A DNA stretch of 64,000 bases from NCBI GenBank assembly GCA_021464245.1, contig JADCRB010000103.1:186001-250000 (forward strand), read 5' to 3'. Origin of the DNA: Carallia brachiata (Eukaryota; Streptophyta; Magnoliopsida; Malpighiales; Rhizophoraceae). Below, in pieces: positions 13,787-46,286 of this stretch (within the stretch, counting starts at the first letter, position 1; every line of letters begins with the position of its first letter). The notes beneath the pieces were generated by a model. That model did no database searches, had not been told where the DNA came from, and saw nothing but the letters and a program-made list of their open reading frames with translations. The position numbers and the translations under genes were made by a program.

Positions 13787-14426
13787 ACCAACTGCACAGT
13801 TGATGGCTTTAATTTTCTTCCTTTCACGCAATGTTTTCACATTGAAAGGAGCCCTATAAATAGGCCCTCGGCCCCCAGTTCAAAATATATTCAGCAAATC
13901 TGTAAACAGAAAAATACAGAAATGTGAGAGAAAAAGAAAATTTTGAAAATCTCTCAAGAAAATTTATCATTTTCCTACATGTTTTTACTCTGCAGTATAC
14001 TCTCCTAACTCCTTTTTGAGAGATTTCAAGGATATGAAAATATCAAATATACAAATCGGCTGGGATCAAGTCTCATACGGGCCTCAGCAAAATCCAAGCA
14101 GCTCATCCGAGAACAAGTCCCTTCGACTCTCGGTGAAATTAAGCCAGATCGGCTCAGATCAGATCTCTGCGGTTCTTAACTGTAATCTAAATGTCCAAAT
14201 CAGATCCAATTTCAATCTACCCAGTTCAAGATAAAGCTGTGAAAATTATTTCTGTCAAGATCAAGCTCGTGCAGCCTTTGACGGAGTCAAAAAAAAGGAA
14301 CACTAATCGGAGGATTTACAGAGATCGACCCCACGTAAATTTTCTTTTATTTTTAAAAATTTTATTGTAATTTGTTGTTTGTATTTTCGAGTTTAATTAT
14401 TTTAGACTCGAAATTTATCTATTACA
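13787..14426 (+). repeat. Tat 5' LTR, part shared with the middle LTR
   Basis: Aligns closely with 23068-23509 from the hairpin core ACCAACTGCACAGTTG to the end ATTACA. It includes the TATA box, the GAGAGATTTCAAGGAT block and a GACGGAGT block. A segment of about 200 bp (near 14050-14260) with degenerate ~47-bp repeats (GGGATCAAG, CTC-TACGG type) is missing from the middle LTR. Upstream of 13787 the two LTRs share nothing, so one of them is rearranged there. Confidence 0.7.
13854..13864 (+). promoter_or_regulatory. LTR TATA box
   Basis: CTATAAATAGG fits a plant TATA box; the same sequence is present in the middle LTR at 23135-23145. Transcription would start about 30 bp downstream. Confidence 0.55.
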
Positions 14427-14432
14427 AATTTT

Positions 14433-14450
14433 TGGCACGCTCGGTTGGAT
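14433..14450 (+). other. Tat primer-binding site
   Basis: TGGCACGCTCGGTTGGA lies 6 bp after the LTR end, as expected for a site matching a tRNA 3' end (TGG pairs with CCA). The equivalent site after the middle LTR starts at 23516. I could not name the tRNA. Confidence 0.5.
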
Positions 14451-15055
14451 CTCTTCACCTCTCATCTCTTGTTCCTTAAAACAAAAAAAAAAAAAAAGCA
14501 AAAAGAAGCAGTAGAGAAAAGAAAAAAATAGAAAAGTAGAAAAAAGGAAAAAAGAAAAGAGCCGGAAAAAGAAGAAAAAAGGAAAAAAAAGAAAAAGAAA
14601 AAGAAAAAGGAAAAAGAAAAAGAAAAAGACAAAATAGAGAAAAAGACAAAAAAGGTCAAAAAGTAAAAAAAAAAAATTTAACAGGTGTTCAGCACATCAA
14701 ATGACACAAAAAAAGAGTACATCTGCTGCTACAAAAAAAGAAGGCAACTGCTCCACTACCTGTATCAACTACCCTACCTGGGTACGTAAGTTTAGAAACC
14801 CGGGGACGGACATAGTTTCTTGCCGTCCAAACACGACAAAATATCAAAACGGAGAGTCCACAGCTCGCACAACAACAGGATCTATCCCCTGACTCTCTTG
14901 CCGAATGGAGGAATCGATCACCCACCCCAATCGAAGTCGGGGGCAACACGACAAAACCCGCTCAACAGAATCCAACTCATTCTATAGAGATCCACACAGA
15001 GGAATCAGAAGAGTTCTCTCCCTCAGTCTTTCGCCGAGTCTCATCTGTTGCCGTC
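14451..15055 (+). other. Tat leader with A/G-rich tract
   Basis: About 14475-14680 is nearly all A and G, followed by an untranslated stretch. The layout is repeated between 23530 and 24144. The minus-strand phenylalanine/serine-rich ORFs here are artefacts of the purine tract. Confidence 0.6.
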
Positions 15056-16600
15056 ATGATGACCAACACAACCATTACAGAATAAAGAATTTTAGAATTG
15101 GACAAAAAGATTTTACAGTTAATCAGAGTCGTGGAGGAAAAAGATCAATAGATCGCCGCTCTCAAAGGAAAATCTGCGAGGAGCAATCATATCCACCCGG
15201 TTTCACTCCAGAAGCCACATCAGCCGACGTCTTCACTGCAGAAAAGCAACCAGGTAGTTCTACACAACTGCCACCATCAAATTCTGTAGCTTCGCTATAT
15301 GTTCAACAATTGCAGGAAATGATAGCTAATAAGATCCGTCTGTAACAAGCTATATCCTTCCAAGGATCATAGATATACGTCAAACAGTACACTAGACGGA
15401 TCGAAAGTCTCAACATGCCTTTGGGCTACCAACCGCCCAAATTTCAACAATTCGACGGACGAGGCGATTCCAAACAGCACATCGCCCACTTCGTTGAAAC
15501 TTGCAACAACGCAAGGACTTACGAAGATCTCTTGGTGAAGCAGTTTATTCGTTCACTTAGGGAGACTGCTTTCACCTAGTTCATAAATCTTGAACCAGAA
15601 TCGATCGACAGTTGGGAACATCTACAACGAGAGTTTCTCAACAGATTTTTCAGCACTCGAAGGACGGTAAGTATGATGGAACTTACCAGCACCAAACAAA
15701 GGAAATGAGAGCTTGTTGTCGAACACATCAACAGATGGCGTGCCCTCAACTTGGACTGCAAAGATCGTTTGACGGAGACTTCTGCTGTGGAGTGTGCATC
15801 TAGGGAATGCATTGGGAGCTGTTATACATCCTGCAGGGTATCAAACCCCGAACCTTCGAAGAACTGACGACCCGCGCACATGATATGGAGATAAGCATCC
15901 AGACTTCCGGGGTACGGTTCCCATCCAGTTGGACCAGCAAGGAGGCAGAAGGGAGATTAAGAAACCCAACAGTTCCGGAAAAGGAAAAGAAGTGATGACT
16001 ATTGCAGCCGCACCAGTAAAAGTGGGAGCCAAGCTAAGGTAAATCCTCCGACTCAAATAACTCAGCCAAAACAACAGGAAAGGCGGAAGGTAACATTGCG
16101 AGAGTTGGAGCAGAAGCAGTATCCATTCCCAACTCAAACGTACCCGACATTCTGGAACAACTCTTGGAGGCGAAGCTGATCGAACTCCAGAGTGCAAGCG
16201 GCCAATGAAAAGGATCGAGTCAGCGATCAAGATTCTGCAAATATCACTGCATAGTAAGTCATCCAACCGAGAAGTGTTTCGTCCTGAAGAGCTAATCATG
16301 AAGCTCAAGAGCCAGAATAAAATCATTCTGGACCGAAGGTGTAACCTCGGCAAACCAGACCACCATCACTTCAAAACCATCAGAAGAGAACACATCGTAA
16401 GGAGGAGTCGCTCAACAATAAAAAGTGAAACGGAGAAGGTATATAAAGCTCTCCAAACCCTTCTCGCTAACCCTCAACTGTTTACAGCTTTACGATCAAC
16501 AGAAGTGTGGCAAAACCAAGTCAGCAGCACTCTCATGCCTCAACTGAATCTCTGCCATCAAATAATTCCAACTGGTGGAGCATTAGACGACCCATAATCA
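15056..16600 (+). pseudogene. Tat gag, copy 1
   Basis: Starts ATGATGACCAAC at 15056, matching the start of the better-preserved copy at 24145. It encodes the structural protein of the virus-like particle. The N-terminus has a charged coiled-coil-like stretch (VVEEKDQQIAAL), then a proline/serine-rich linker, then the retrotransposon gag core with GYQPPKFQQFDGRGD and HIAHFV, and RRTVSMMEL further on. Stops occur soon after the start and after the NKIRL residues, and TAG at 15577-15579 follows RETAFT. Several frameshifts follow. The TAG at 15577 is also present in copy 2. Not translatable as one protein. Confidence 0.75.
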
Positions 16601-17930
16601 CGTTGGATGTTACTCTGCTATCTCATTTTCAGATGAGGATCTCCTGCTGGGTCCAAACCCCACAATCGGCTGCTATGTATCAGGCTATGTGAGAGAGCAA
16701 AAGGTCCGACGTATTCTGATCGACGATGGCTCGGCAGTCAATATTATCCCAAAATCCACCATAAAGGAGCTCGGCTTTGGCATTGATGAATATCAGACAG
16801 CACTTGATGATTCATGGCTTTAATCAAGGAGGACAGAAAGTAATTGGGATGATTCGCTTGGAGCTAACTATCAGTAATCTCACTTCTAGCACTCTATTTC
16901 ATGTGATTGATGCACGTACCACGTATAAGATGTTGCTAGGACGACCGTAGATTCATGGAAATGGAGTTGTGCTCTCAAACCTGCATCAGTGCTTCAAGTA
17001 CTACAATGGTGGCGTTCAAAAGGTCAATGCTGATTTAAAGCCGTTTGATGATGCTGAATCACATTTGGCGGATGCAGTCTTCTACACCGACACAAACAAT
17101 CTGGAGATCATTCCATCAAAAGCTACTTGGACTGGGGGCATCCACAAAAAGGGAAAAGCTGTTGAAGAACCTGCCAATGCTCAACTCGGACTCCGACAAA
17201 TGAAAAGCTGTCACAGCTGCTGAACTTTGTCCGAAGGATGTTGCATCTTCAAGCTCCACTGCAGTCCTACGCTATGTGCCGAAGTCACGACGCCCAGAAG
17301 GTCAACCCCCTTTCTCTTATTGTATTGATCCTAAACAGGAGCAAGGACATAGTCAACCCAAAATAAAGGAACTACCTGACTGAAGGAGACTTACACTCTG
17401 CCGATACCAAAGATTGAGCCGGTTTTGTCTTCAAAACCATTAAAAGGCTTCGTCAAACCACACACGGGGCAGTCGAAGGCGGCTCACTTCCAGAAAGAAG
17501 AACACACGAAGGATTTGATCCTAATGCATACAAGCTCTTGGCCAAGGCAGGCTATGACTTCTCAAACCCGAGCACAATGGGTACGCTGCCGTCCACACAT
17601 GGCGCCGCTTCTCAATCATCACAGTCCCGACCTGGCTTAGGCTATCAGGAGAAGTCACCTGTGCGGATCACGCTAAAGAGCCGAAGCCGAGCAGCTGATG
17701 CACGTGCCATCACCACCACCAAACAAGACAGGCTTATCCAGTCAAACAAAGAAGGTGAAGTCAGAGGTTCTACATTTCATGTCACAATTAGCGAGGAGGC
17801 TGATTCCGACTCATCAGACGGTGAAGTGAAGGAGGCTCCCCGGAACTTGAAGATGGTGGCCAAGCAACTGTTGATGAACTCAAGGAGGTCAATCTTGGCT
17901 CTCCGGAAGATCCTCGACCTACATTTGTAA
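16601..17930 (+). pseudogene. Tat protease region and linker
   Basis: Around 16700-16745 the sequence reads RRILIDDGSAVNIIP, matching the aspartic-protease active-site region of Tat elements (DDGS). It is followed by KSTIKELGF and, near 16940, LLGRP. The protease would process the gag-pol polyprotein. A stop after LLGRP and frame changes near 16800 break the frame. The open stretch 16969-17223 continues the post-protease linker, and 17425-17930 is the variable linker before RT. Confidence 0.6.
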
Positions 17931-18903
17931 GTGCTTTACTTACTGCAGAAGAAGAGCAAGAATATGTTCAGGTATTAAGTCAATACAGGGACGTGTTCGC
18001 ATGGAGTTACAAAGAAATGCCTGGACTTGACCCAAAAATTGCGGTGCATCGTCTAGCAGTAAAGAAGGGTGTTCGTTCTGTCAAGCAGCCACAACGACGG
18101 TTCCGCCCGGAACTCATTCCACAAATCGAGGAGGAGGTAACAAGCTGATCAATGCTGGCTTCATCCGAGAGGTCACCTACCCAACGTGGATTGCCAACAT
18201 AGTCCCGGTAAGAAAGAAGAATGGACAGTTGAGGGTATGTGTTGATTTTCGAGATCTTAACAGGGCCTGTCCGAAAGATGACTTTCCATTGCCCATAACG
18301 GAGATCACAGTCGATGCAACAACGGGTCACGAAGCATTGTCCTTCATGGATGGTTCTTCAGGCTATAACCAAATCAGAATGGCACCAGAAGATAAGGAGT
18401 TGACAGCATTCCGCACCCCAAAAGGTATATACTGCTACAAAGTTATGCCGTTTGGATTAAAAAATGCTGGCGCCACTTATCAACGTGCTATGCAAAAAAT
18501 TTTTGATGACATGCTGCACAAGATTGTAGAATGTTATGTTGATGACTTAGTTGTAAAGACTAAGAAGCGCAAAGACCACCTCGAGGATCTCAAGACAGTG
18601 TTCGAAAGACTTCGGAGGCATCAGCTCAAAATGAACCCTCTCAAGTGCGCATTCGGTGTCACATCAGGAAAGTTTCTTGGGTTCGTGGTGCGCCATCGTG
18701 GAATCGAAGTTGATCAGTCAAAGGTTGAGGCAATTCAAAAGATGCCTGAACCTAAAAACCTGCACGAACTGCGAAGTCTACAAGGAAAGCTGGCCTACAT
18801 TCGCCGTTTCATCTCCAATTTAGCTGGGAGATGTCAACCTTTCCATCGGTTGATGAAGAAGGATGTCAACTTCGAGTGGGACGAAGCTTGCAGTAAGCTT
18901 TGA
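17931..18903 (+). pseudogene. Tat reverse transcriptase
   Basis: RT copies the element RNA into DNA. An open frame of 224 codons (18229-18903) covers most of the domain: VCVDFRDLNRACPKDDFPLP, FMDGSSGYNQI, MPFGLKNAGATYQ, and the catalytic YVDD at 18535-18546, followed by FLGFVV and the LRSLQGKLAYIRRFI connection. The upstream fingers (AVKKGVRSVKQPQRRFRP and GFIREVTYPTW) lie in another frame at 18030-18220, separated by a frameshift near 18140. All catalytic aspartates are present, so this is a relatively young pseudogene. Confidence 0.85.
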
Positions 18904-19795
18904 GAGCATAAAGAAGTACCTTTCCAATCCACCGGTCCTAGGTGCTCCAATTCAAGGAAAGTCGTTGATTCTCTACATTGCAGAGCAGGAAAGATCTTTG
19001 GGAGCCTTGCTTGCACAGGAAAACGAGCAGGGAAATGAAGTTGCCCTGTACTACTTGAGCAGAACACTAAACGGTCCGGAGCTGAGTTATTCGCCCATTG
19101 AAAAGACATGTCTAGCACTGTTCTTTGCCATTGACAAGCTGAGGCACTACATGCAAGCTCACACGGTACGTCTCATTGCCAGAGCTGATCCTGTCAAATA
19201 TATCTTATCTAGACCAATCTTGTCAGGACGACTTGCCAAGTGGGCAGTAATCCTACAAAGCTACGACATTGTCTACGTGCCTCAAAAAGCAGTCAAAGGA
19301 CAAGCTCTAGCAGACTTCCTTGCAGATCACCCTGTTCCGTCAGATTGGGAGTTCACAGATGATCTTCCAGATGAAGAGGTCTTTTACATTGAGACACTGC
19401 CACCATGGACGATGTTCTTTGATGGTGCAGCAAGGCGTGATGGTGCTGGTGCCGGCATAGTGTTTGTCACTCCTCAACGACAAATACTACCATATGCTCA
19501 TTCTCGGTGAGTTATGTTCAAATAATGTTGCTGAATACCAGGCTTTGATCATTGGTCTTCAAATGGCTGTCGATATGAAGATTCCAACTATAGAAGTCCA
19601 TGGAGATTCCCAGCTCGTCATCAACCAACTTACAGGATTGTATGACGTGAAGAAAGAGGACCTTGCGCCTTACCATCAACGTGCTCGACAGCTAATGGAT
19701 GAATTTGAAAGCATCACCTTGGAGCATGTGCCTCGACGAGAAAACACTCAGGCAGACGCGTTGGCTAACCTGGCCACTTCTCTTGCAAAGTCAGA
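18863..19795 (+). pseudogene. tandem RNase H: gypsy type plus archaeal type
   Basis: 18863-19370 encodes the ordinary gypsy RNase H (LILYIAEQERSLGALLAQE, YYLSRTL, YSPIEKTCLALFFAIDKLRHY), which has lost key acidic residues, as is usual in Tat elements. A second archaeal-type RNase H (aRNH) follows at about 19400-19795 with its four acidic positions recognisable: MFFDGAA, NNVAEYQAL, VHGDSQLV and ADALANLA. It is thought to supply active RNase H for this lineage. The aRNH is split by a frameshift near 19490, where the first frame stops at 19510 and the second resumes. Confidence 0.85.
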
Positions 19796-19799
19796 AATC

Positions 19800-21140
19800 C
19801 AGGCTACAGTTGTTGCGTATCAGAAATGGATAGTGCCACAGAAGGATGATGAAGAAACTACAGCAGCCAACGCTGTATCTGTACGTCTCGCGGAGGACGA
19901 GATTGGCGCCAACCAATCATTGACTACCTACAGCACGGGAAGCTGCCCGAAGATCGTCGTCATAAGACAGAAATTCAACGACGAGCTCCCCGCTTCATAT
20001 ATCTCAAGGATGCTCTGTATCGAAGGTCTTTTGATGGATTTTACTTCGCTGCCTAGCAATGAAGAGGCAAAACAGGCTCTCACTGAAGCACATTCTGGTG
20101 TTTGTGGCGGACATCAATCAGGGCCTAAGTTGCACTTCCAACTCAGAAGGATGGGATACTACTGGCCAACCATGGTACGTGATTCATTGAGTTTGCTAAA
20201 ACTTGTCAAGCTTGTCAATTTCATGCAATTACATACATCAACCACCGGAGCCACTGCATCCAACTGTCTCATCCTGGCCCTTTGAAGCTTGGGGTCTCGA
20301 CTTAGTGGGGCCCTTGCCAAAGTCATCCCTGGGTCACCTGTACATCCTCGCAGCAACCGACTACTTCTCAAAATGGGCTGAAGCCATTCCACTTAGAGAG
20401 GTAAAGAAGGAGCATGTTGCCAATTTCATCCGGACTCAGCTGATCTATCGCTATGGAGTCCCTCGATTCATCATCACTGATAATGGTAAGCATTCTACAA
20501 CAGCTTGATGACAAGCTCTGCGAGAAGTTCAAGTTCAAGCAGTACAAGTCATCCATGTACAATGCCCCAGCAAATGGCTTGGCCGAAGCATTCAACAAGA
20601 CCTTATGCAACCTGTTGCGGAAGGTAGTCTCTAAATCCAAAAGAGATTGGCATGACAGAATTCCGGAGGCATTATGGGCGTATCGTACAACTTACCGGAC
20701 TCCAACACAGGCGACGCCATACTCACTTGTCTACGGTGTCGAAGCAATACTGCCGTTGGAAACACAGATTCCATCTCTGCGCATGGCTGTTCTGGAAGGA
20801 CTCACACAGGAGGAGAATGCTCGCCTACGTCTGGATGAGTTAGAAGCCTCGATGAAAGGAGGCTCGAAGCACAACAGCAACTTGAGTGCTACCAAGCCCG
20901 GCTCACCAACACGTTCAACCGCAGGGTCCGCCTCGATCTTTTCAAATTGGAGACCTTGTTCTTGCAGTGCAATGACCCATCAACATGAAGCATCGGCCTG
21001 GTGACAAGCTTACTTCCAAATGGGACGGGCCATACTTAGTGCAGGAGGCCTATACTCACAACGCTTACATGCTGTCAGACCAAGAAGGCGTCCGAATCGG
21101 CCCGATCAATGGTAAATTTCTGAAACAGTATTATGTGTAA
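19800..21140 (+). pseudogene. Tat integrase
   Basis: Inserts the cDNA into the genome. The zinc-binding part (HSGVCGGHQSGPKL, MGYYWPTM) lies at 20090-20175, followed by a frameshift near 20180. The core starts with WGLDLVGPLP and ATDYFSKWAEAIPL at 20285-20400 and has YGVPRFIITDNG. There is another disruption near 20485, then FNKTLCNLLRK, WHDRIPEALWAYRTTYRTPT and YGVEAILPLE. The C-terminal part is in a third frame and ends with FLKQYYV and TAA at 21138-21140. The final residues match the usual end of Tat pol. Confidence 0.8.
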
Positions 21141-21500
21141 ATATGTTTAAAAAAAATCAAAAAAAAAGGAAAAAAAATCAAAAAAAAAGAAGAAAAAAGA
21201 AGAAAAAAATAAAAAAAAAAGTTCGGAAGTCCCGATCTGAAAGTCTAAGCGAAAATTCAAACCCGAAAATCTAAATTCCAAAATCGAAGTCCAAACACTT
21301 GAGCCCAATTCAGAAAACTCAAAGCCCAACTCAAAAGCCTAAAAACTAAGTCCAGACTCAAAACCTAAACACTAAACTCAAATCCAAAAGTCCAAATCCA
21401 AAACCCAAACACTCGACCCAAATCCAATCCAAAGTCCAAAACCCAAAAATTTCAAGTTCCAGACACAGTCCAAAACCCAAGTTCAAAATCCAATCCAACT
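21141..21500. repeat. low-complexity spacer after pol
   Basis: A-rich tract (about 21148-21220), then a run of degenerate CCAAA/AACCC words from about 21250 to 21490 (AAACCCAAAC, AATCCAATCC, AAAGTCCAAA). It separates integrase from the homeobox segment. The phenylalanine/serine-rich minus-strand ORF is an artefact. Confidence 0.6.
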
Positions 21501-21539
21501 CCTGGCCTGCATGAGTATAAACTGTGAACGGCCAAAAAA

Positions 21540-21547
21540 TATAAAAG
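21540..21547 (+). promoter_or_regulatory. TATA-like box upstream of the homeobox ORF
   Basis: TATAAAAG lies 95 bp upstream of the homeobox ATG (21635), giving a plausible leader of about 65 nt. This suggests the homeobox segment has its own promoter, perhaps carried over from a donor gene. Position and sequence are seen; function is inferred. Confidence 0.4.
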
Positions 21548-21634
21548 CAACTGAGGGTTTGAGTCTGAAACTCAACATCAGTCTCAATTGATCTTCACCA
21601 CCTACCAGACCTTTGCTCCTCTGCCATAAGAAAG

Positions 21635-22372
21635 ATGGAACCAGTTGTAGAACCTGAAGAAAAGGGAGAAGAAAGGTCACCCCGCATCAGGTGGCAACCA
21701 ACCATGACACAACTACAAATTTTGGAGGAAGTCTTCCACAACAATGGAGGTATTATTCATAATACATCTCAGATTTACCAACTTGTCTTACGACTGCACC
21801 CGCTCGGGGCGATCAAAGGAAAAAATGTGTTTTATTGGTTCCAGAATCGGAGAAGCAGAAAGAAACCAGTATTGAGAACTGCTTTTTCCAAAGCATAGTC
21901 TGCTATTCCGATAGTAGATCCCACCGGTACAGCTTCACCCTCAAATGAAGTAGGTCCGAGTTCTACCACTGCAATGGTCTCTTCAGGCTATAACGATCAA
22001 AGCCGTAGCCCGTGGGAGCATGCGTACTGGTCCTGGTGCTCTTACGGCATTAGTCAAGGGTTCATCCCTCCTAAGTACTTAAGTTCATGAGAGATTTTTC
22101 TAGCATAAAGAAGTTATTTCGGCGAAATTTTGCCTCTCTTCCCAGAATATTCCAGCAGCATCAACCAGCCGGAAGGCTCCAGCGACGTCAACATCATCGG
22201 CCCACCAGACGAGGCCGAGCTTGACTTGGAACTGCGCCTCGGGCCCCGCCAAGGACTTCTGCAACACACGACAACGACTTCTGCAACACACGATAACGAT
22301 TTTCGTGATGCGCGTCAGCCGCTGCCTCTTTTGTCTCTTATGCGGGAAAGGGACGTGGATGACCCTACTTGA
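21635..22372 (+). pseudogene. WUSCHEL-related homeobox (WOX) gene captured in a Tat element
   Basis: ATG at 21635 opens an 87-codon ORF ending TAG at 21896. Residues 19-77 are a WOX-type homeodomain: RWQPTMTQLQILEEVF, then QIYQLVLRLHPLGAI, then KGKNVFYWFQNRRSRKK. GKNVFYWFQN is the WOX signature, and the W, F and N of recognition helix 3 are conserved. Continuing in the same frame past TAG (21896), TGA (22088) and TAA (22106), the sequence gives LPLFPEYSS near 22120, a match to the WUS-box (TLxLFPxx), then ELDLELRLG near 22212, an EAR-like LxLxL repression motif, and a stop at 22370. This is the order in WUS-clade WOX proteins, which are nuclear transcription factors for stem-cell maintenance. 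I see no intron within the homeodomain. Either the gene is decaying or only the 87-residue homeodomain peptide is made. An intron removing the two later stops cannot be excluded. Confidence 0.85.
22255..22298. repeat. 22-bp tandem duplication in the WOX 3' part
   Basis: Two consecutive 22-bp units (ACTTCTGCAACACACGA-AACG) differ at one base. They lie just downstream of the EAR-like motif. As 22 is not a multiple of three, the duplication shifts the frame and probably altered the C-terminus. Confidence 0.6.
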
Positions 22373-23067
22373 TTCTGCATACCTTCTTTTTGACTTTTCA
22401 AAGAAAAAAAAAACTCTTTATTGTTTGTATATATATCCTGCATGCCCGAGTTGTAATACTCACCCCTCAACTCTTCTTTATCTCAAAAGGAAAATGGCTA
22501 GTCTCTGCACTTATTTCAGAAAGTTTTCTGGTCAAGAAGTTGGAGGCGCACGAGCTAAGAAAAGAAGAAGTAGTCCTCCTCGAGGGATTTCTAAAAGCTC
22601 TCGAAACTCAGTCTCCAATGTCATCGGTGTTATGGAGTTCCAACTACTCTCCTTATTCACATCTACCACAGAGGGATGAGAAGTTGCAATCATCCTAAGC
22701 TTTCTTTGGATGCGACGACGTACAGGGAAGTTCCAACTACTCTCCTCACGTCGAAACAGACTTGGGAATCATCACTATAGTCAGTCTCTCTGTGTACCGG
22801 TCTTGAAGTTCCGAAGTGCTGGGCCTTCCTCTTGGGGAGGTTCAAGTTTGTTGCTTACTGGATCATTCTTACCAGAGCTTTGGAACTACAAATAACCTTT
22901 GCCAGCTTTTGCGAGCTATGGAAGATCGACCACACCTGGAGTCAGAATGTCAATTTTTATATTGGCTGGGGTGCTAACTTTCTCAAGATCATATCAGGTT
23001 CCTATTGCGATCGAACAATAGCAGACATAGTCAGAGTTAGAAAACTTCAACGTTCAATGTTTATCAG
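22373..23067 (+). other. unassigned segment between WOX and the middle LTR
   Basis: No domain recognised. Two overlapping open frames (to 22679 and to 22698) have no family match. The 18-bp word AGTTCCAACTACTCTCCT occurs at 22636 and 22729. A GGGGAGG purine patch near 22829 could be a polypurine tract, but no convincing LTR start follows it. This may be the rest of the captured DNA or the Tat 3' untranslated region. Confidence 0.4.
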
Positions 23068-23509
23068 ACCAACTGCACAGTTGGTGGCTTTAATTTTCTT
23101 CCTTTCACACAATGGTTTCACATTGAAATGAGCCCTATAAATAGGCCCTCGACCCCCAGTTCAAAACATATTCAGCAAATTTGTAAACAGAAAAATATAG
23201 AGAATTTGAGAGAAAAAGGAAATTTTGAAAATCTCTCAAGAAAATTTCTCTTTTTCCTATGTATTTTTACTCTGCAGTATACTCTCCTAACTCCTTTTTG
23301 AGAGATATTTCAAGGATCTGAAAATATCAAAATATTGCAAATCAGGCTCGTGCAGCCCTTGACGGAGTAAAAAAAAAAAGGAACACTAATCGGAGGATCT
23401 ACGGAGATCGACCCCACGTAAATTTTCTTTTATTTTTACAATTTTTATTGTAATTTGTTGTTTGTATTTTCGAGTTTAATTATTTTAGACTCAAAATTTA
23501 TCCATTACA
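23068..23509 (+). repeat. middle Tat LTR, 5' truncated
   Basis: High identity to 13787-14426 apart from loss of the internal repeat segment. It contains the same TATA box (about 23135-23145), the GAGAGATATTTCAAGGAT block and the ATTACA end, with a primer-binding site at 23516. The 5' limit falls inside the hairpin that is complete in the first LTR, suggesting a recombination or deletion breakpoint there. Confidence 0.7.
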
Positions 23510-24144
23510 AATTTTTGGCACGCTCGGTGGGGCCTCTTCACCTCTCATCTCTTGTTCCTTAAAAAAACAAAAAAAGAAAAGCAAAAAGAAGCAGTAGAGA
23601 AAAGAAAACAAAAACAAAAAAGAAAAAAAAAGAAAAAAGAAAAGAGCCGGGAAAAGAAGGAAAAAGGAAAAAAAAAGAAAAGAAAAAGGAAAAGAAAAAA
23701 GAAAAAAAAGACAAAATAGAGAAAAAGACAAAAAATGTAAAAAAGTAAAAAAAAGTGAAAAAAAAAATTTAACAGGTGTTCAGCACATTAAATAGCACAA
23801 AAAAGGAGTACAATTGCTGCCACAAAAAAGAGGGCAATTGCTCCACTGCCTGCATCAACTACCTTCCTAGGTACTTAGGTCCAGAATCCCGGGGACAGAC
23901 ACAGTTTCTTGCCGTCCAAACCCGACAAAATATCGAAACGGAGAGTGCATAGCTCGCACAACAACAGGATCTTTCCCCTGACTCTCTTGCCGCATGGAAG
24001 AGTTGATCACCCACCCCGATCGAAGTCAGGGGCAACACGACAAAGCCCGCTCAACAGAATACAACTCATTCTGTAGAGATCCACACTAAGGAATCAGAAG
24101 AGTTCTCTCCCCCAGTCTTTCGCGGAGCCTCATTTGTTGCCGTC
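23510..24144 (+). other. second Tat leader
   Basis: Primer-binding site TGGCACGCTCGGTGGGG at 23516, then an A/G-rich tract to about 23770 and an untranslated stretch, all parallel to 14433-15055. Confidence 0.6.
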
Positions 24145-25653
24145 ATGATGACCAACACAACCATTACAGAAGAAAGAATTTCAGAATTGGATAACAAGAT
24201 TTTGCAGTTAATCAAAGTCGTGGAGGAAAAAGATCAACAGATCGCCGCTCTCAAAGGAAAAGCCCCGATCCAAGTTGATCCCGAAATCCGCGAGGAGCAA
24301 CCATATCTACCCGATTTCACTTCAGAAGCCACACCAGCCAACGTCTTCACCGCAGAAAAGCAACAAGGTAGTTCTACACAGTTGCCACCCTCAAATTCTG
24401 TAGCTTCGCTATCTATTCAACAATTGCAGGAAATGATAACTAATATGATCCGCCTGCAACAAGCTATATCCTTTCAAGGATCACAGATATATGTCAAACA
24501 ATACACCAGACGGATCGAAAGTCTTAACGTGCCTTTGGGCTACCAACCGCCCAAATTTCAACAATTCGACGGACGAGGCGATCCCAAACAGCACATCGCC
24601 CACTTTGTTGGAACTTGCAACAACGCAGAGACTTACGGAGATCTCTTAGTGAAGCAGTTTGTTCGTTCACTCAGGGAGACTGCTTTCACCTAGTTCATAA
24701 ATCTTGAACGGAATCGATCGACAGTTGGGAATAGCTGCAACGAAAGTTTCTCAACAGATTTTTCAGTACTCGAAGGACGGTAAGTATGATGGAACTTACC
24801 AGCACCAAACTAAGGAAATGAGAGCTCGTTGTCGAATACATCAACAGATGGCGTGCTTTCAGTTTGGACTGCAAAGATCGTCTGACAGAGACTTCTGCTG
24901 TGGAGATGTGCATCCAGGGAATGCATTGGGAGCTGTTACACATTCTGCAGGGTATCAAACCCCGAACCCTTGAAGAACTAACGACCCGCGCACATGATAT
25001 GGAGATAAGCATCCAGACTTCTGGGGTACGGTTCCCATCCAGTTGGACCAGCAAGGAGGCAGAAGGGAGATTAAGAAACTCAACAGTTCTGGAAAAGAAA
25101 AAGAAGTGATGACTGTTGCAGCCGCACCAGTAAAAGTGGGAGCCAAAGTTAAGGTAAATCCTTCGACTCAAATAACTCAGCCAACACAACAGGAAAGGCG
25201 GAAGGTGACATTGCGAGAATTGGAGCAGAAGCAGTATCCATTCCCTGACTCAGACGTCCCCGACATTCTGGAACAACTCTTGGAGACGAAACTGATCGAA
25301 CTCTCAGAGTGCAAGCGACCCAATGAAAAGGATCGAGTCAGCGATCCAAGATTCTACAAATATCACCGCATAGTAAGTCATCCAACCGAGAAGTGTTTTG
25401 TCCTGAAGGAGCTAATCATGAAACTCAAGAGCCAGAATAAAATCATTCTAGACCAGAATGGTGTAACCTCGGCAAACCAAACCACCATCACTTCAAAACC
25501 ATCAGAAGAGGTGACACACCGTAAGAAGGAGCTGCTCAACAATAAAAAGTCGACAATGGAGAAGGTATATGAAACTTCCCAAACCCTTCTCGCTAACCTT
25601 CAGCTGTTTACAGTTTTGCAATCAACAGAAGTGTGACAAAACCAAGTCAGCAG
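24145..25653 (+). pseudogene. Tat gag, copy 2, truncated
   Basis: ATG at 24145 opens 182 codons of gag, better preserved than copy 1: an N-terminal coiled-coil-like segment with RISELDNKILQLIKVVEEK, a linker, then GYQPPKFQQFDGRGDPK, HIAHFVGTCNNAETYGDLLV and LRETAFT. TAG at 24691-24693 stops the frame at the same codon as in copy 1. Further gag continues in shifted frames, including 25043-25636 (a C-terminal part with HPTEKCFVLKELIMKLK). Homology to copy 1 stops abruptly at about 25653, before the protease region. Everything from protease to the 3' end of this copy is missing. Confidence 0.75.
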
Positions 25654-26100
25654 TACTATTGATTAAAGCAAGTGATCAGCATTAATTACTTGATGGCAGG
25701 AAAAGATTAATTTTGAAAATTTGTGAAATGACCAGATAATGAAAAGAAAATTTTTTTTGACATGACTGGACGATTTGGCAATGATTTTCGCAATGAAAAG
25801 ATTAATTTTGAAAATTTTTGGACATGAGCCGGAGGATTTTAGTGATCATTCGCATTAAAGTTTTGAAAAGTTCATTTTTAAAAATGCTAGGATGATTTTT
25901 ACGGTGATTGGTAACAGTGTTGAGATCGAAAAGAAATTTTGAGATATATTTGAATAATTTTAACAGTGATCCGTTGTTCAAAAAAGATTAATCTTAGAAA
26001 TCTTTGAGAAAAAATTCATCTGAACGATTTTTGCAGTGAGCCGTAGCATCATAATTTCAAAAAAAGAACTATGTTGAAAAATATTTGGAAACCAAGTTAA
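25654..26100. repeat. U3-like repeats at the 3' side of the Tat complex
   Basis: Units with GAAAAGATTAATTTTGAAAA, GATGATTTTTACGGTGAT and CAGTGA-CCGTAGCATC-like blocks, in the same orientation and style as 13260-13740. Probably the 5' part of a 3' LTR whose promoter half is lost. Confidence 0.45.
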
Positions 26101-38870: not shown

Positions 38871-38963
38871 AAAAATTTGGCACAACCGGTGGGATATCTC
38901 TATCTCCCATCTTTTGCTCCTCAAAAAAAAAAAAAAGAATCCAACACCGGCATTGTCACAGTA

Positions 38964-39263
38964 ATGATGAGCAACACAATCAATACGGAAGACAGGATTG
39001 CAGAATTGGAAAGCAGAATTTTCCAATTGTTTAAGGATATGGAAGGAAAAGATCAACAGATCGCCTACCTCTAAAGAAAGACCCCGATCCAAGTTGATCC
39101 TGAGACTTGCGAAGAGCAACCATACTGATCTGGTTTCACTCCAGAGGCAACGTGAGCCGACGTCTTCACTACAGAAAAGCAACTAAGCAGTTCCACACAG
39201 CTACCACCTTCAAATTCTATAATCTCGCTATCTGTCCAACAATTACAGGACGTGATAGCCAAT
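38964..39263 (+). pseudogene. Tat gag start, copy 3, interrupted
   Basis: ATG at 38964 begins MMSNTINTEDRIAELESR, parallel to gag copies 1 and 2, with the same KDQQIA and coiled-coil region, and stops at 39072. Homology continues through the proline/serine linker (QLPPSNS-like, LSVQQLQDVIAN) up to 39263, where the Athila element begins. The uninterrupted gag copies continue from this point, so the insertion site is defined to the base. Confidence 0.7.
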
Positions 39264-40708
39264 TGATAGATTCAATATTTAAATAGGTTTATGCATAATT
39301 TTTATATATATTTGGATAGTTTAACTATGTAAATATTGTAAATTATGGCAAATTCTACTTCGGTTGCTTGTTTTATGCTTTGTAGGACAATTGGACATAA
39401 CTGAAGTATTTGACGCTTAGAAAAAGGAACCTATTGGGTTTGAAGGAGAAGAAACGAGCCGAGCACCAAAGAACCGAATCAAAAGTTTGGTTGGAAAGCT
39501 AATATGTGATCAGTTCGGGTAGAATTTGACAGCTTTGCGCACTGCTCGGTATTTCAGCCATAACTTCCTCTACACAAGTCGGAATTGGATGATTCTTAAG
39601 TCGAATCGAAGCTAAGAGATAGAGCTACAAGTTTTCTGTTTTGACTGACTTCGGATTCTGCCTGAAAAGGGTCGCAATTTGGGTCCGAAACTAGAGGGTC
39701 AAAACTGTCCAGGAAATTTATAAATCCTTTTCCGACTCGAATTTGGACTCTTTAGGGCTTACAATTTCATTTTTTGAGGGGACTATAAATACAAAAGTTA
39801 CAGCAGATTGAGGGGATTTTTGGAGGCTACTCTTTTGGAATAGAAAGACGATGCAGAGAGAAGCAGAGAGACGAAAGAGGAGAAGAGCATAAGGAAGGAA
39901 CACGAAGACGTCGGAACGAGTTTTTCAATTCTTTCTCGTTTCTTCTTTCTCTTTTGAACTCTTGATGTTTATTAGTTGTTTATTTTCAGTTTTTAGTATG
40001 AGAGGCTAGAACCCTAAACTAGGGCGAAAGGGATGTAGCCTAGTTTAGGGTTGGATTATATGATTTTTGTGGATATTTAGAGTTCTCTGGATTATATTGC
40101 AATTTCATGTTGAGAACTGGAATTTGATTTATCTATTTTGCTCTTAAATATACTTTTGTGCCTGATCACCATGAAAGTAGTCATAGGATTTGTGTTGAGA
40201 TCGACAGATGAGACATGAGTCGTGCACTAAATAGATAAACATATGAATTTTGAGTCAGAGATGAGATAAATTCGTATGATGTCAATAAAAATTCTCTGTT
40301 CTTAATGAGTTGAGTCTGATTTGTGTGAGTTCGAGAGAAGAGCACAATTAGATTGAATATGGTTAGGGTTGCTTGACAAAGAACACTAACTAAATAAGAA
40401 GAGTTGACATTCAATTCAATTGTCCACGAAATTTTCATATAGTTCAATCCTTTCTAGGTGAATGCCCATAGCCCTAGTACTCTTATTCTTGATCCGTCTC
40501 CATAGTGTCATTAGTTTTGTTTAATTAGTTTAATTTTCTTAATTTAATATTATTTATTTTCTTTTTATAATTTTCGCAACGCCACTTTTCTACTCAAGCA
40601 ACATAAATTACGATTATCCTCTGTTCCTTTGGGTTCGACACCTGGAGTATTCACCAGGATTTTATTACTACGATCGGCCCTGTACGCTTGCAGGATTTCA
40701 CCCGGTCA
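39264..40708 (+). repeat. Athila 5' LTR (1445 bp)
   Basis: Starts TGATAGATTC and ends CCGGTCA. TATA box CTATAAATA at 39783-39791 (matching 50808-50816 in the 3' LTR). It contains no ORF of interest. Confidence 0.85.
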
Positions 40709-40887: not shown

Positions 40888-42697
40888 ATGCAATTGCGAG
40901 CATGTAAGAGCGATAATCTCCTTCCGTTGAACCCCGAGATTGAAAAGCTTTGTCGGCAAAATCGAGCCATAAAACGAATTGAGATGGCCGAAAGAATAGA
41001 AGGGATGGTCAGGTGATAGTAGATCAAGCACTCAACAATGGGCAGGGTGAGGGAGCAAGCGAGAATTAGCATGAAGGACATCCAGAGGCCGTAATTGGGC
41101 CCTCACCATCTTGCATCAGGCTGAGTACAGCAGCTCGTAACTACGAGCTTAAGACGATGTTCTATAATATGCTACCAGCATTTCATGGTCTACCGAGTGA
41201 AGACCCACTCACTTTTCTTAGGGATTTCTACAGCACTATCGAGACTTTTCCTCCAGGGAGGTGTTCAGCAGACGAATTAAGGATGAGGTGTTTTCCCTAC
41301 ACCCTCAAGGATAAGGCAAGGACTTGGTTGATCAACCTACCAGAGGAGTCACTTAATACTTGGGAGCAGATTTATGATAAATTTATGCTGAAGTTTTACT
41401 CCCCACAGAAGACTGCAGAGCTTCGGAATAAAATCTGTTCCTTCTCACAAATGGATGCTGAGCCCTTTCATGAGGCATGGGAGCGATTCAAGATGCTTCT
41501 AGTACAGTGCCCACATCACCAATTCTCAAAGCCTCTCCAAATGCAGTTCTTTTATGATGGCCTCATCACTAATTCCCAGATGTTGGTGGATTCGGCAGCT
41601 GGAGGATATGTGGGTAATAAGTCTGCAGACGAGCTGTATGACATATATGAATTGTTGGCAGATAATTCCCAGCAGAAAGCTGTTAGAGGGCGTAGAGCTG
41701 GAGTTTATGAGCTAACTTCACAAACAGATGTGGCATCCAAAATCGATGATCTAGCACGACAAGTGAAGTTACTTGTGAACAGAGATTCAATGCAAAAGGA
41801 ACACTGCTCATATTGTGGACGATTTGGACACAATGAAACTGCTTGTATGGGTATTGACTCTGGAAATTCTTTTGAAGATGTCAATTATGCTGGAGCTTAT
41901 ACAGGAAACAAGCAGAGGAATGACCCATATTCCGGTACATATAACCCAGGATGGCGCAACCATCCAAATTTTGGGTGGAAAGAGCAGGGTAATGCAAGAC
42001 CAATAGTACCACCAGGTTTCAGCAACAGAGAACTCAGTTTCAAGGTCAACCATCTCAATCTCATGAGAAGAAGCCACAGATCGAAGACATGTTTATGCAG
42101 TACATGTCAAAGATGGATGAGAGGATGTCACAACAAGATGCTGAGATGAAGAAGTTGAACTTGAAGATTGACCAAGTTGCATCCACCCAACAAGCTTCTA
42201 TTCACACTTTGGAAGTGCAGATGGGTCAGCTAGCAAAAGCAGTTTCAAATAGGAATCAAGGCCAACTCCCTAGCAATACTGAGGTGAACCCAAAAGAGAA
42301 TGCCTTGGCTATTACCTTGAGAAGTGGGAAAGTGGTAGAAAATCCCATTGATGCTCAGCACAAACAAAAGTCCATCGAGAAAGGTCACGAAGAAGAGGAA
42401 TCTGTGCCTGAAAAAGTTAATGATAATGGAAAGGGAGGGCAGGAAGACAATGAGGAGTTAGTTCCAACCATTCCTTCCCCACAAGTCAAGCCGTATGTCC
42501 CGCCAATTCCATTCCCCAACAGGCTAAAGAAGAAGAATGATGACAGGAATTTCCTCAAATTCTTGGATATGTTCAAAAAGATCCACATCAATATCCCCTT
42601 TGCAGAAGCAATTGCACAGATGCCTTCATATGCAAAGTTCCTGAAGGAGATTATATCAAACAAAGAAGACTTGAAGAGAACGCCACAGTTTCCTTAA
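40888..42697 (+). pseudogene. Athila gag
   Basis: ATG at 40888 opens 42 codons (LLPLNPEIEKLC, AIKRIEMAERIEGM) and stops at 41014. The main frame (41157-42149 plus an upstream extension with one TAG) holds the gag core: LPSEDPLTFLRDFYS, RMRCFPYTLKDKARTWL, WEQIYDKFMLKFY. The zinc knuckle CSYCGRFGHNETAC is intact near 41805-41850. A single-base loss near 42019 shifts the frame; gag then continues in 42089-42697 with a coiled-coil-like MSQQDAEMKKLNLKID and AITLRSGK, conserved in Athila. Another frameshift near 42665 ends it before the protease. Confidence 0.82.
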
Positions 42698-43184
42698 CTG
42701 AGGAGTGTAGTGCTATTCTTCAGAATAAGCTACCTCCAAAGTTAAAGGACCCAGGGAGTTTTACTATCCCTTGCACCATTGGTAGTTTAGGTATTGAACG
42801 TTGTTTATGTGATTTAGGTGCAAGTATTAACTTAATGCCTTTATCTCTTTTCAGGAGACTCGAGATAGGAGAATTGGAGCGAACATCAGTATCTTTGCAG
42901 TTAGCTGATCGATCTATCAAGTATCCCTATGGAAAGATAGAGGATGTGTTGGTTAAAGTGGGAAAGTTTACTTCCCTGCTGATTTTCTAGTGCTAGAAAT
43001 GGAGGAAGATGTTGACATCCCAATAATCTTAGGAAGGCCATTCCTAGCAACTGGTGGAGCCATTATTGATGTGAAGCAAGGGAAACTTACACTGCATGTG
43101 GACAACGAGAAGCAAGAGTTTAATGTCTTCAAGGCCATGAAGTATCCTCAGCATGGAGACTCTTGTTTCAAATGGAGATTTTGA
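42698..43184 (+). pseudogene. Athila protease
   Basis: KLPPKLKDPGSFTIPC is followed by CDLGASINLMP near 42812-42845, the Athila protease active site (D-L-G-A-S). After a frameshift near 42975, VDIPIILGRPFLATGG and DVKQGKLTLHV complete the domain. The catalytic Asp is present. Confidence 0.8.
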
Positions 43185-44967
43185 ATCATATTGAAGAGAT
43201 AGCCTACCAAGTAGAGAATTTCAAAGAACCGCTTGAGGCATGTCTCACCGAGAGCATTGCTGAGGAGAATGAGGATCCAGATGGCATGGAATGTGTCATG
43301 CGATTGGAAGGCGATGGATTCTTACCAATAAGAACAAGAGCAGTATTTGAAGAGTTGGGAGAGGGCAAGCCTAGGCCTTTACCATCAATTGTGAAACCGC
43401 CCCAGCTTGAGTTGAAAGAGCTACCTAGTCACTTGCGGTATGCATTTTTGGGAGACTCAAGTACTCTGCCTGTGATTATTTCAGCTGCTTTGAGCAAAAC
43501 AGAGGAAGAAAGGTTACTACGAGTGTTGAGGGAGCATAGGATGGCTTTAGCTTGGACTATTGCTGATATCAAAGGCATTAGTCCTTCTTTTTGCACACAT
43601 AGAATCTTGATGGAGGAAAATCATAGACCATGTGTACAGCACCAGAGGCGACTTAACCCACATATGAAAGAGGTTATCCGAGCTGAGGTTTTGAAGCTAC
43701 TCGATGCAGGGATCATTTATCCAATCTCAGACAGTTCATGGGTGAGTCCAGTACAAGTAGTTCCGAAGAAAGGAGGCATGACAGTCGTGAAGAACGATAA
43801 GGATGAGTTGATTCCTACAAGAACTGTCACAGGATGGAGAGTTTGCATAGATTACAGAAAGCTAAATGCAGCCACTCGGAAAGACCATTTTCCTTTGCCT
43901 TTTATTGACCAGATGTTAGAGAGACTGGCAGGTCATTCTTTCTATTGCTTTCTTGATGGATATTCTGGCTATAACCAGATCCCTATTGCTCCAGAGGACC
44001 AGGAAAAGACAACATTCACTTGTCCTTATGGTACCTTTGCATACAGGCGAATGCCCTTCGGGCTTTGTAATGCACCGGCTACTTTCCAAAGGTGCATGAT
44101 GGCAATTTTTTCTGACATGGTAGAGAGTATTATTGAAATATTCATGGATGACTTCTCTGTTTTTGGGGCTTCTTTCGAGGCATGTTTGAAGAATTTGGCA
44201 CTAGTCCTACAGCGGTGTGAAGAGACCAACTTAGTCTTAAATTGGGAAAAATGTCACTTTATGGTTCAGGAGGGTATCGTCCTAGGGCATCGAATCTCCA
44301 AGAAGGGTATAGAGGTGGACAGAGCAAAGATTGAAGTTATTGAGAGATTACCCCCACCAAGTTCAATTCGGGCTGTGCGAAGCTTCCTCGGACATGCAGG
44401 CTTCTACCGAAGTTTATTAGAGATTTCTCGAAGATTACCAAGCCACTCTGTGCACTTTTAGTCAAGGATACTCCCTTTAACTTTGATGATGAATGTTTGA
44501 AGGCATTTAATCATTTGAAGAAGGAGCTGACATCGGCACCTATAATGACAGCACCAGATTGGAATTTACCTTTCGAGCTGATGTGTGACGCTAGTGACTA
44601 TGCAGTAGGAGCTGTCTTGGGACAACGGAGAGAGAAGCGGTTGCATGTGATATACTACGCTAGTAGGATATTTACTGACGCCCAAATGAATTATGCAACA
44701 ACAGAGAAGGAGCTATTGGCGATAGTTTATGCCTTTGAGAAATTCCGTGCTTATCTTGTTGGTTCCAAGGTCATCGTGTATACAGATCACTCCGCCATCA
44801 AGTACCTGCTATCAAAGAAGGATGCAAAACCTAGGCTAATCCGATGGATCTTATTACTTCAGGAGTTTGATTTGGAGATCCGGGATAAGAAGGGTACAGA
44901 GAACTTAGTAGCAGACCATCTTTCAAGACTGGAGCAGGCTGAGCAGCAAGAGAAAACTGCCAATTGA
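43163..44967 (+). pseudogene. Athila RT and RNase H
   Basis: An open frame to 44461 (432 codons) holds nearly all of RT: ISPSFCTHRILMEENHRP, AGIIYPISDSSWVSPVQVV, WRVCIDYRKLNAATRKDHFP, FLDGYSGYNQI, MPFGLCNAPATFQR, and catalytic FMDD at 44141-44152. A frameshift near 44410 breaks the GFYRRFI-like connection. RNase H follows at 44497-44967 with [55 protein letters not shown] and AEDHLSRL-type (VADHLSRL) motifs; the catalytic acidic residues are present. Confidence 0.85.
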
Positions 44968-46286
44968 TGATCGTTTTCCAGATGAGTTTTTGTGGCTTGT
45001 GCAAAGTAAAGATCCCTGGTATGCAGATTTGTTAATTACTTAGCTAGTAACATTATTCCTCCTGATCTTTCTCATCATCAGAGGAAGAAATTTCTCTCAG
45101 ATATCAATATTTTATGTGGGAGGAACCGTTGCTTTTTAAGAATTGTGCAGATGGAATTATTCGAAGATGTGTACCAGAGAATGAGATGGAGGCCATTCTA
45201 ACTCATAGTCATACATTACCCTGTGGAGGCCATTTTGGGGCTGAAAAGACAGCAGCTAAAGTGCTTCAGTCTGGATTCTATTGGCCTACAATTTTTAAGG
45301 ATGCGAGGACTTTCGTGATGGCTTGTGACAGGTGCCAACGGACTGGTAATATTGGTAAGCGTCACGAGATGCCCCAGACAGGTATTCAAGAGGTTGATTA
45401 TTTGATGTATGGGGGTTGGACTTCATGGGACCGTTTCCACCATCTCATGGTAATCTTTATATTCTAGTAGCTGTGGATTATGTGTCCAAGTGGGTTGAAG
45501 CTGTAGCATTACCCAACAACACTGCCAAGGTGGTTGTGAAGTTTGTAAAGAAGAACATTCTCACGTTTTGGAGTGCCGAGGGTGGTCATAAGTGACAATG
45601 GAGTCCACTTTAAAAATAAGACTTCGAGGGTCTCTTGAGCAAATATGGGTGTCAATTCAGAACTAGTACTCCATACCATCCACAAACGAGTGGCCAAGTG
45701 GAAGTTTCCAACAGAGAGATCAAGTCCATTCTAGAGAAGACTGTCCTCTTCAAGGAAGGATTGGGCTATCAAGCTAGATGATGCTTTGTGGGCCTATAGA
45801 ACAGCTTACAAAACACCGTTGGGAATGTCCCCATATCGGTTAATCTTTGGCAAGCCTTGCCATTTACCTGTGGAGCTGGAGCATCGTGCTTATTGGGCTG
45901 TGAAGACACTCAATTATGACTTGAAGTCTGCTGGCGAAAAGAGACTTCTTCAACTCAATGAACTTGAAGAGATTCGCAGGGACTCATATGAGAATGCTCG
46001 GATTTATAAGGAGCGAACCAAGGCTTGGCATGACAAGCACATCCAACGAAGGGAGTTCAAGGAAGGACAGAAAGTGTTGCTATTCAACTCTAGATTTCGA
46101 TTTTTTCCTGGCAAATTGAAGTCTAGATGGTCAGGTCCTTTTGAGGTGACTAAGGTGTTCCCGTATGGAGCAGTTGAGATTCGTGGAGAGGACATGAAAA
46201 AGTTCACTGTCAACGGCCAACGACTAAAGCTATACTTTGAACGTGATGGAGTGGCAGATGTTCATTCCATTATTTGGCTTGATTGA
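44968..46286 (+). pseudogene. Athila integrase
   Basis: The zinc part is in 45114-45467: HTLPCGGHFGAEKTAAKVL, GFYWPTIFKDA and CDRCQRTGN. A frameshift near 45400 precedes the core ([14 protein letters not shown], then [26 protein letters not shown]) with two more frame changes between 45560 and 45760. The C-terminal 166 codons (45786-46286) are open: [43 protein letters not shown], then a GPFEV-type domain ending IIWLD. DDE residues are recognisable but never in one frame. Confidence 0.83.

Follow-up and report, generated by a model that had tools for sequence, protein, structure and literature searches.

A WUSCHEL-type homeobox gene as a likely resident accessory gene of a Tat-type Ty3/gypsy retrotransposon family in Carallia brachiata

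Introduction

Amplification of WOX homeobox genes between long terminal repeats (LTRs), with target site duplications, has been described in Vigna marina and V. riukiuensis, with more than 1000 copies in the latter (talk by K. Naito, meeting report PMC10714607). Here, a WUSCHEL-type WOX gene is analyzed that lies inside a Tat-type Ty3/gypsy element of Carallia brachiata, in a stretch of 64,000 nucleotides (contig JADCRB010000103.1, positions 186,001 to 250,000 of the forward strand) that is called the window as a whole and to which the positions below refer. As with the LTR-WOX of Vigna, many WOX copies of this element are found between LTRs with target duplications; the available portion of the Vigna report names no lineage, pol linkage, protein motifs or selection test, and the two are likened by description only (PMC10714607). 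A literature search found WOX inside LTRs described in that report alone, as far as its available portion goes (PMC10714607). The present analysis adds lineage, anatomy and selection evidence to this barely described phenomenon and points to an occurrence of the WOX burst of coastal Vigna outside that genus as well. The present host is very probably not a Vigna, judging from two comparisons: soybean leghemoglobin, used as a query, has only three matches in this genome (at most 58% over 40 amino acids), and the plastocyanin is identical at 77 of 94 positions to B chains that we take to be those of French bean, spinach and poplar alike, with 76% identity to a poplar plastocyanin sequence.

Two other described systems, cited below from the portions of text that were available, offer partial parallels. 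Retand and the present element are both Tat-related gypsy retrotransposons with an accessory gene between pol and the 3' LTR in most copies (PMC11963269). That gene is the antisense TRP28 in Retand, whereas it is sense and recognizable as WOX here, and the distance from pol to the 3' LTR is about 1.95-2.06 kb in seven copies of the present element compared with 2.9-6.6 kb in the Retand survey, whose available text reports no sense open reading frame (ORF) with a known domain between pol and the 3' LTR of its elements (PMC11963269). A Retand-type antisense TRP28 ORF was not found in the present element, where the longest antisense stop-free stretch listed is 111 amino acids, in seven copies and without a TRP28 Pfam scan. 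Maize Bs1 likewise carries a host-type gene in sense orientation (PMC7264820); compared with Bs1, the present family has hundreds of copies, two subfamilies and signs of selection. The terms 'Homeo', 'WUS' and 'WOX' are absent from the main texts of both sources in their available portions (PMC11963269; PMC7264820).

WOX is a regular part of the element family

The host genome (337.5 Mb in 164 contigs) was searched for homeodomain matches, of which the best 150 of 1,675 candidates were scored, and with two 35-base patterns allowing at most two mismatches. The homeobox pattern occurred at 665 places and the integrase-end pattern at 676, with 0 places for each reversed control. Linkage was analyzed on the first 100 places per pattern, all of them exact matches, with nine WOX places from other searches added by hand to the 100 pattern places. 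Within the range that both lists cover, 86 exact integrase ends are listed, and for 41 of them a listed WOX lies 622-828 bp farther downstream in the same orientation, while controls on the opposite strand and upstream gave 0 and 0. Ten of the other 45 listed integrase ends, all on the plus strand, were fetched, and WOX was present in all ten at 86-97% DNA identity, in five of them as a second subfamily; overall, WOX follows in 51/51 of the listed integrase ends that could be judged. We read WOX as a regular part of this Tat-type family. The initial annotation had held that several full-length elements with WOX in the same place would show a stable cargo, and the hundreds of copies with fixed pol-WOX spacing bear this out. 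WOX models in genomes of this kind may be element copies, which is a caution for gene-family surveys. Elsewhere, a protein database search gave one candidate and none at E 0.001, few plant proteins being suspected in that database, and a pattern search of viral contigs gave 11 stretches, none confirmed.

Of ten copies retrieved together with 15 kb of surrounding sequence, seven are flanked by an LTR pair, with the LTR pattern TGTAAAC...GCTTTACA, the purine tract TGAAGTGGGGGCATT and the primer site TTTTTGGCACGCTCGG. When flanks were read by eye, 5-bp target duplications were seen in six of the seven (GTGTC, ATATA, CTCAT, TTGAC and, twice, CTTAC); copies L045 and L047 are the same locus seen twice (flanks 98.6% identical), which leaves five distinct insertions with target duplications. 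No target duplication was seen in the flanks of the remaining pair (L041), and L055 as well as the copies with N runs, L039 and L057, yielded no LTR pair. Divergence within the seven pairs (Kimura two-parameter distance 0.011-0.067) corresponds to estimated insertion ages of 0.4-2.6 million years (My) if substitutions accumulate at 1.3e-8 per site per year.

These copies fall into three architectures, all of which retain WOX. Gag is present in L041, L043, L053 and L057. In L049, L051 and L055 no gag was found; the first two retain pol and WOX between paired LTRs with target duplications. In L045/L047, WOX is kept and both gag and pol are missing; L039 is masked in that region. Mobilization of the gag-less forms in trans is likely, because among the seven LTR pairs that of gag-less L049 is the youngest.

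The encoded WOX protein

In the window, the plus-strand ORF at 21635-21898 (87 amino acids, stop-terminated) matches the Pfam Homeodomain at E 1.2e-10 (41.5 bits, cut-off 22.9), and its closest solved structure by sequence is WUSCHEL (6ry3, E 5.4e-15), followed by STENOFOLIA; the WOX-type homeodomain first proposed for this ORF is upheld by these matches. The homeodomain, a WUS-box-like LPLFPEYS and an EAR-like ELDLELRL had also been said to follow one another in the same frame and in canonical order. Frame and order hold, the two motifs lying in the stretch 22127-22249 of the plus strand (ORF 22130-22372), but three in-frame stops between homeodomain and WUS box (21896-21898, 22088-22090 and 22106-22108) divide the window copy into more than one ORF.

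Relatives of the window copy show the same motifs in less damaged form. In 38 fetched copies, the homeodomain is open from the ATG in 34, the frame reaches the WUS box in 18, and it also includes the EAR-like motif in 13. Because these 13 hold all three in one open frame of 200-208 amino acids, the motif order is not due to chance, and a WOX-type homeodomain with WUS box and EAR downstream in one frame, as expected of a WUS-clade protein, is found in 13/38 copies and not in the window copy. The count relies on loose motif patterns in 18 copies with flanks and 20 short ones; the set includes L045 and L047 as one locus, L059, fetched too short, and L006 and L073, which each vary in a motif, and it was picked from the best protein matches, with a resulting bias toward intact copies.

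AlphaFold predicts the three homeodomain helices (block pLDDT, the program's confidence score, 86-88) and a disordered remainder (mean 53.5), and the ten top PDB matches in a search with the predicted fold are all WUS or STENOFOLIA homeodomains. In helix 3, residues W, F, N and R, which we take to be DNA contact residues, are invariant in 8/8 aligned copies. The element WOX thus resembles WUSCHEL and STENOFOLIA in its order of homeodomain, WUS box and EAR and in its predicted fold, that of the WUS homeodomain, and has its loop length in common with WUS; it differs from them in sequence (about 50% identity, with QNRRSR for QNHKAR), in its length of about 204 amino acids and in being mobile and multi-copy.

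Past WOX, sense stretches (MASLCT...) at 22490-22700 of the window and in the B pieces L042-L058 are open for 100-220 amino acids in several copies. A further sense ORF at this place was dropped as a candidate, the long stop-free stretches occupying different frames between copies.

Signs of purifying selection

WOX is likely to be a resident and selected accessory gene of the Tat-type Ty3/gypsy family. Support comes from its position, its copy number, the LTR pairs with target duplications, and shared variants that carry a mark of purifying selection. The gene could instead be passenger cargo, a single WOX capture amplified with the element to the benefit of neither element nor host; captured host gene pieces are described as common in plant elements (PMC7264820, available text). 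This alternative, which we consider improbable, was weighed on variants counted in 50 copies, the 38 described above plus 12 chosen by pattern and not by protein score, with codons under the pattern excluded. The neutral expectation for nonsynonymous to synonymous variants (N:S) was 2.37:1, with an assumed transition weight of 4. Singleton variants (N44:S17:stop5) are neutral-like (p 0.89), whereas variants found in at least two copies (N33:S29:stop0) depart from the expectation (p 0.005). The 12 pattern-sampled copies alone gave N27:S29:stop3 (p 6e-4), and an earlier count on the 38 copies, using distinct sequences, agrees (singletons N45:S19:stop4, shared N23:S24:stop0).

Between the two subfamilies (5 vs 34 copies), the ratio of nonsynonymous to synonymous differences per site (pN/pS) is 0.44 at a pS of 0.28. 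The second subfamily (L103, L104, L108, L110 and L111) has a helix 3 of FWFQNRRHRE type and, in four of five copies, about 14% DNA difference; hand calculation with assumed rates places the split very roughly at 13 My (1.3e-8) or 25 My (7e-9). The pN/pS of reverse transcriptase (RT; 0.40 pooled, compared with 0.29 for WOX in the same eight copies) was not used as a yardstick, several RT copies being frame-broken. Passenger cargo is thus opposed by the deficit of nonsynonymous variants in shared alleles and in the copies not picked by protein score, by zero stops among shared variants, by the two diverged subfamilies, and by the persistence of WOX where gag or pol has been lost (L049, L051; L045/L047). 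The simplest reading of these patterns would be constraint during lineage activity, followed by neutral decay once a copy has inserted.

Several observations weigh against a selected gene, some of them in favor of passenger cargo. The full frame is absent in 25/38 copies, and homeobox indels occur in 10/12 pattern-sampled copies, with a stop in the other two. The contrast between shared and singleton variants reaches only p 0.04 (Fisher). Several copies are 99-100% identical in pol and only 91-95% identical in the WOX region; modules therefore recombine and copies are not independent. Mosaic elements are found among L041, L043, L049, L051, L053, L055 and L057, with an identical homeobox in L049, L051 and L053. 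WUS-type sites show no consistent excess in six LTRs, one motif count being matched in 3 of 100 shuffles in the L045 LTR only. As to the broken frames, three of the ten indel copies carry three or four indels apiece and, apart from these, match L006 at 99.2%, which is an odd ratio, and the sole plastocyanin match in the genome (L101, G000:C132:8794690-8795170) is split over two frames. Assembly indel errors thus explain part of the WOX breakage.

Promoter block, tandem arrays and possible function

In the window, the 160 bases before the WOX ATG (21475-21634, plus strand) hold a TATAAAAG box near 21540. Across 13 copies these 160 bases show 94-98% identity, compared with 68-93% and frequent gaps over the 280 bases ahead of them. 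This block, a putative promoter and leader of WOX itself, resembles the unit of a tandem repeat (43-44 bp, with a TATA box, GAGTATAAAAGGC) that occurs in derivatives lacking gag or pol. In L049 and L051 the repeat stands 4.0-4.8 kb ahead of WOX, and in L045/L047 and L002 this distance is about 0.2-1.3 kb (repeat at about 8200-9070 in L045). The repeat was not seen in the remaining fetched copies or in the window; its unit pattern has 1,513 places genome-wide. Both the conserved block and the arrays, which stand in gag- or pol-less forms where WOX persists, would fit a need for the 3' segment as DNA or RNA, be it for a promoter block, a tandem array, packaging or priming, with the WOX frame incidental. 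Such a cis function leaves the nonsynonymous deficit of the homeobox unexplained, and we hold it to be quite unlikely as the reason for the presence of WOX.

On the likelier reading of a selected accessory gene, a Tat-type Ty3/gypsy LTR retrotransposon acquired a WUS-type WOX coding sequence long ago and has retained it, read in sense, between integrase and the 3' LTR. WOX may then have a transcript of its own that starts from the conserved TATA block, by analogy with the accessory gene of maize Grande, for which own-promoter transcription is given in a reference title (PMC7264820, available text). The product of about 204 amino acids, with WUS-type homeodomain, WUS box and EAR, is probably a nuclear DNA-binding repressor, judging from its motifs. 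WUS-clade proteins recruit TOPLESS-type co-repressors through the WUS box and the EAR motif. Such a repressor might favor element expression or inheritance in meristem or germ-line precursor cells, although this specific benefit is put forward tentatively and is itself rather doubtful. Because plants form their germ line late, out of the stem cells of meristems, a repressor of the stem-cell type could bias where the element is expressed and inherited. If the protein works, this would be a rare retroelement with a developmental transcription factor kept as a working gene.

A broader proposal holds that a Tat sublineage shared by unrelated eudicots (the present host and Vigna) has long carried WOX as a selected accessory gene, that the element uses a stem-cell regulator of its own to act on meristem fate or to repress host genes in the cells that give rise to the germ line, and that the TATA arrays of the gag- or pol-less derivatives are a tuned promoter of this gene. 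As a whole this seems unlikely; if true, the gene would parallel, in plants, the oncogenes of retroviruses.

Origin of WOX and its relation to host genes

Eleven host WOX homeodomains were compared, which we assign by sequence to WUS (two), WOX1 (two), WOX2, WOX3, WOX4 (two), WOX5 and WOX13 (two). Against these eleven, the element homeodomain (copy L006) shows 40-51% identity. In a midpoint-rooted tree, it forms its own clade (99/96) on a long stem (1.18 changes per site) and joins the WUS-side host genes at 89/82, a placement that carries a long-branch warning. Capture of a host gene, as the initial annotation had it, is thus supported insofar as WOX is carried within a Tat-type element, but the homeodomain tree, with its low identities and long stem, names no donor. 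Because two WOX subfamilies arose within the element, this is not a fresh capture. Among ten places fetched as candidate host WOX genes, L084-L088 are element-type or lie inside such copies, L086 having no readable motif, and none was retained as donor.

The cargo might also act as a source of small interfering RNAs (siRNAs) that silence host WOX genes, as had been suggested early on. High copy number alone speaks for it. The longest exact run that the 38 element copies share with 11 stretches of host homeobox, a set without WOX8/9/11/12-type genes or C-terminal exons, is 14 bases, shorter than a 21-nucleotide siRNA, and this role appears highly improbable. That an old host WOX gene stands at this locus alone, with Tat pieces inserted separately on both sides, would agree solely with the truncation of both LTRs in the window copy and is refuted by the 665 and 676 places with their fixed pol-WOX spacing and by the LTR pairs and target duplications that bracket pol-WOX units.

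Anatomy of the window copy and neighboring elements

The window copy is old and broken, and all its parts lie on the plus strand. Its left LTR (13787-14426), whose end before the primer site was placed by comparison with copies L041-L054, is truncated on its 5' side and, compared with the right LTR, is interrupted at about 14062-14259; in a window self-alignment, 13787-14061 is 91.8% identical to 23068-23348. The primer-binding site and the gag/protease region (14430-17930) are broken into short ORFs. Overlapping ORF pieces at 18229-20285 encode RT, RNase H and a second RVT_3-type RNase H (Pfam RVT_1 E 5.1e-33, RT_RNaseH E 1.7e-22 and RVT_3 E 3.1e-23), and the integrase core and C-terminal end follow at 20203-21140, the source of the pattern found 676 times genome-wide; the integrase end had been correctly placed near 21140. 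Past WOX, LTR sequence does start near 23068, as had been noted, but it is only a 5'-truncated right LTR that ends at 23509. Gypsy RT, RNase H, integrase and a second RVT_3-type RNase H are all present, which identifies a Tat-type Ty3/gypsy element from Pfam matches and gene order; the order of gag, RT, RNase H, second RNase H and integrase is what we take to be the Tat layout.

Directly downstream, a partial second element (23510-25657, plus strand) holds a primer-binding site and a gag region that match those of the first element at 90% identity. Farther along the window, another gypsy-type element with gag, RT, RNase H and integrase lies at 41070-46283 and has what we would call an Athila-like look, and a diverged gag fragment of a related element, with 66% protein identity, is found at 38953-39267.
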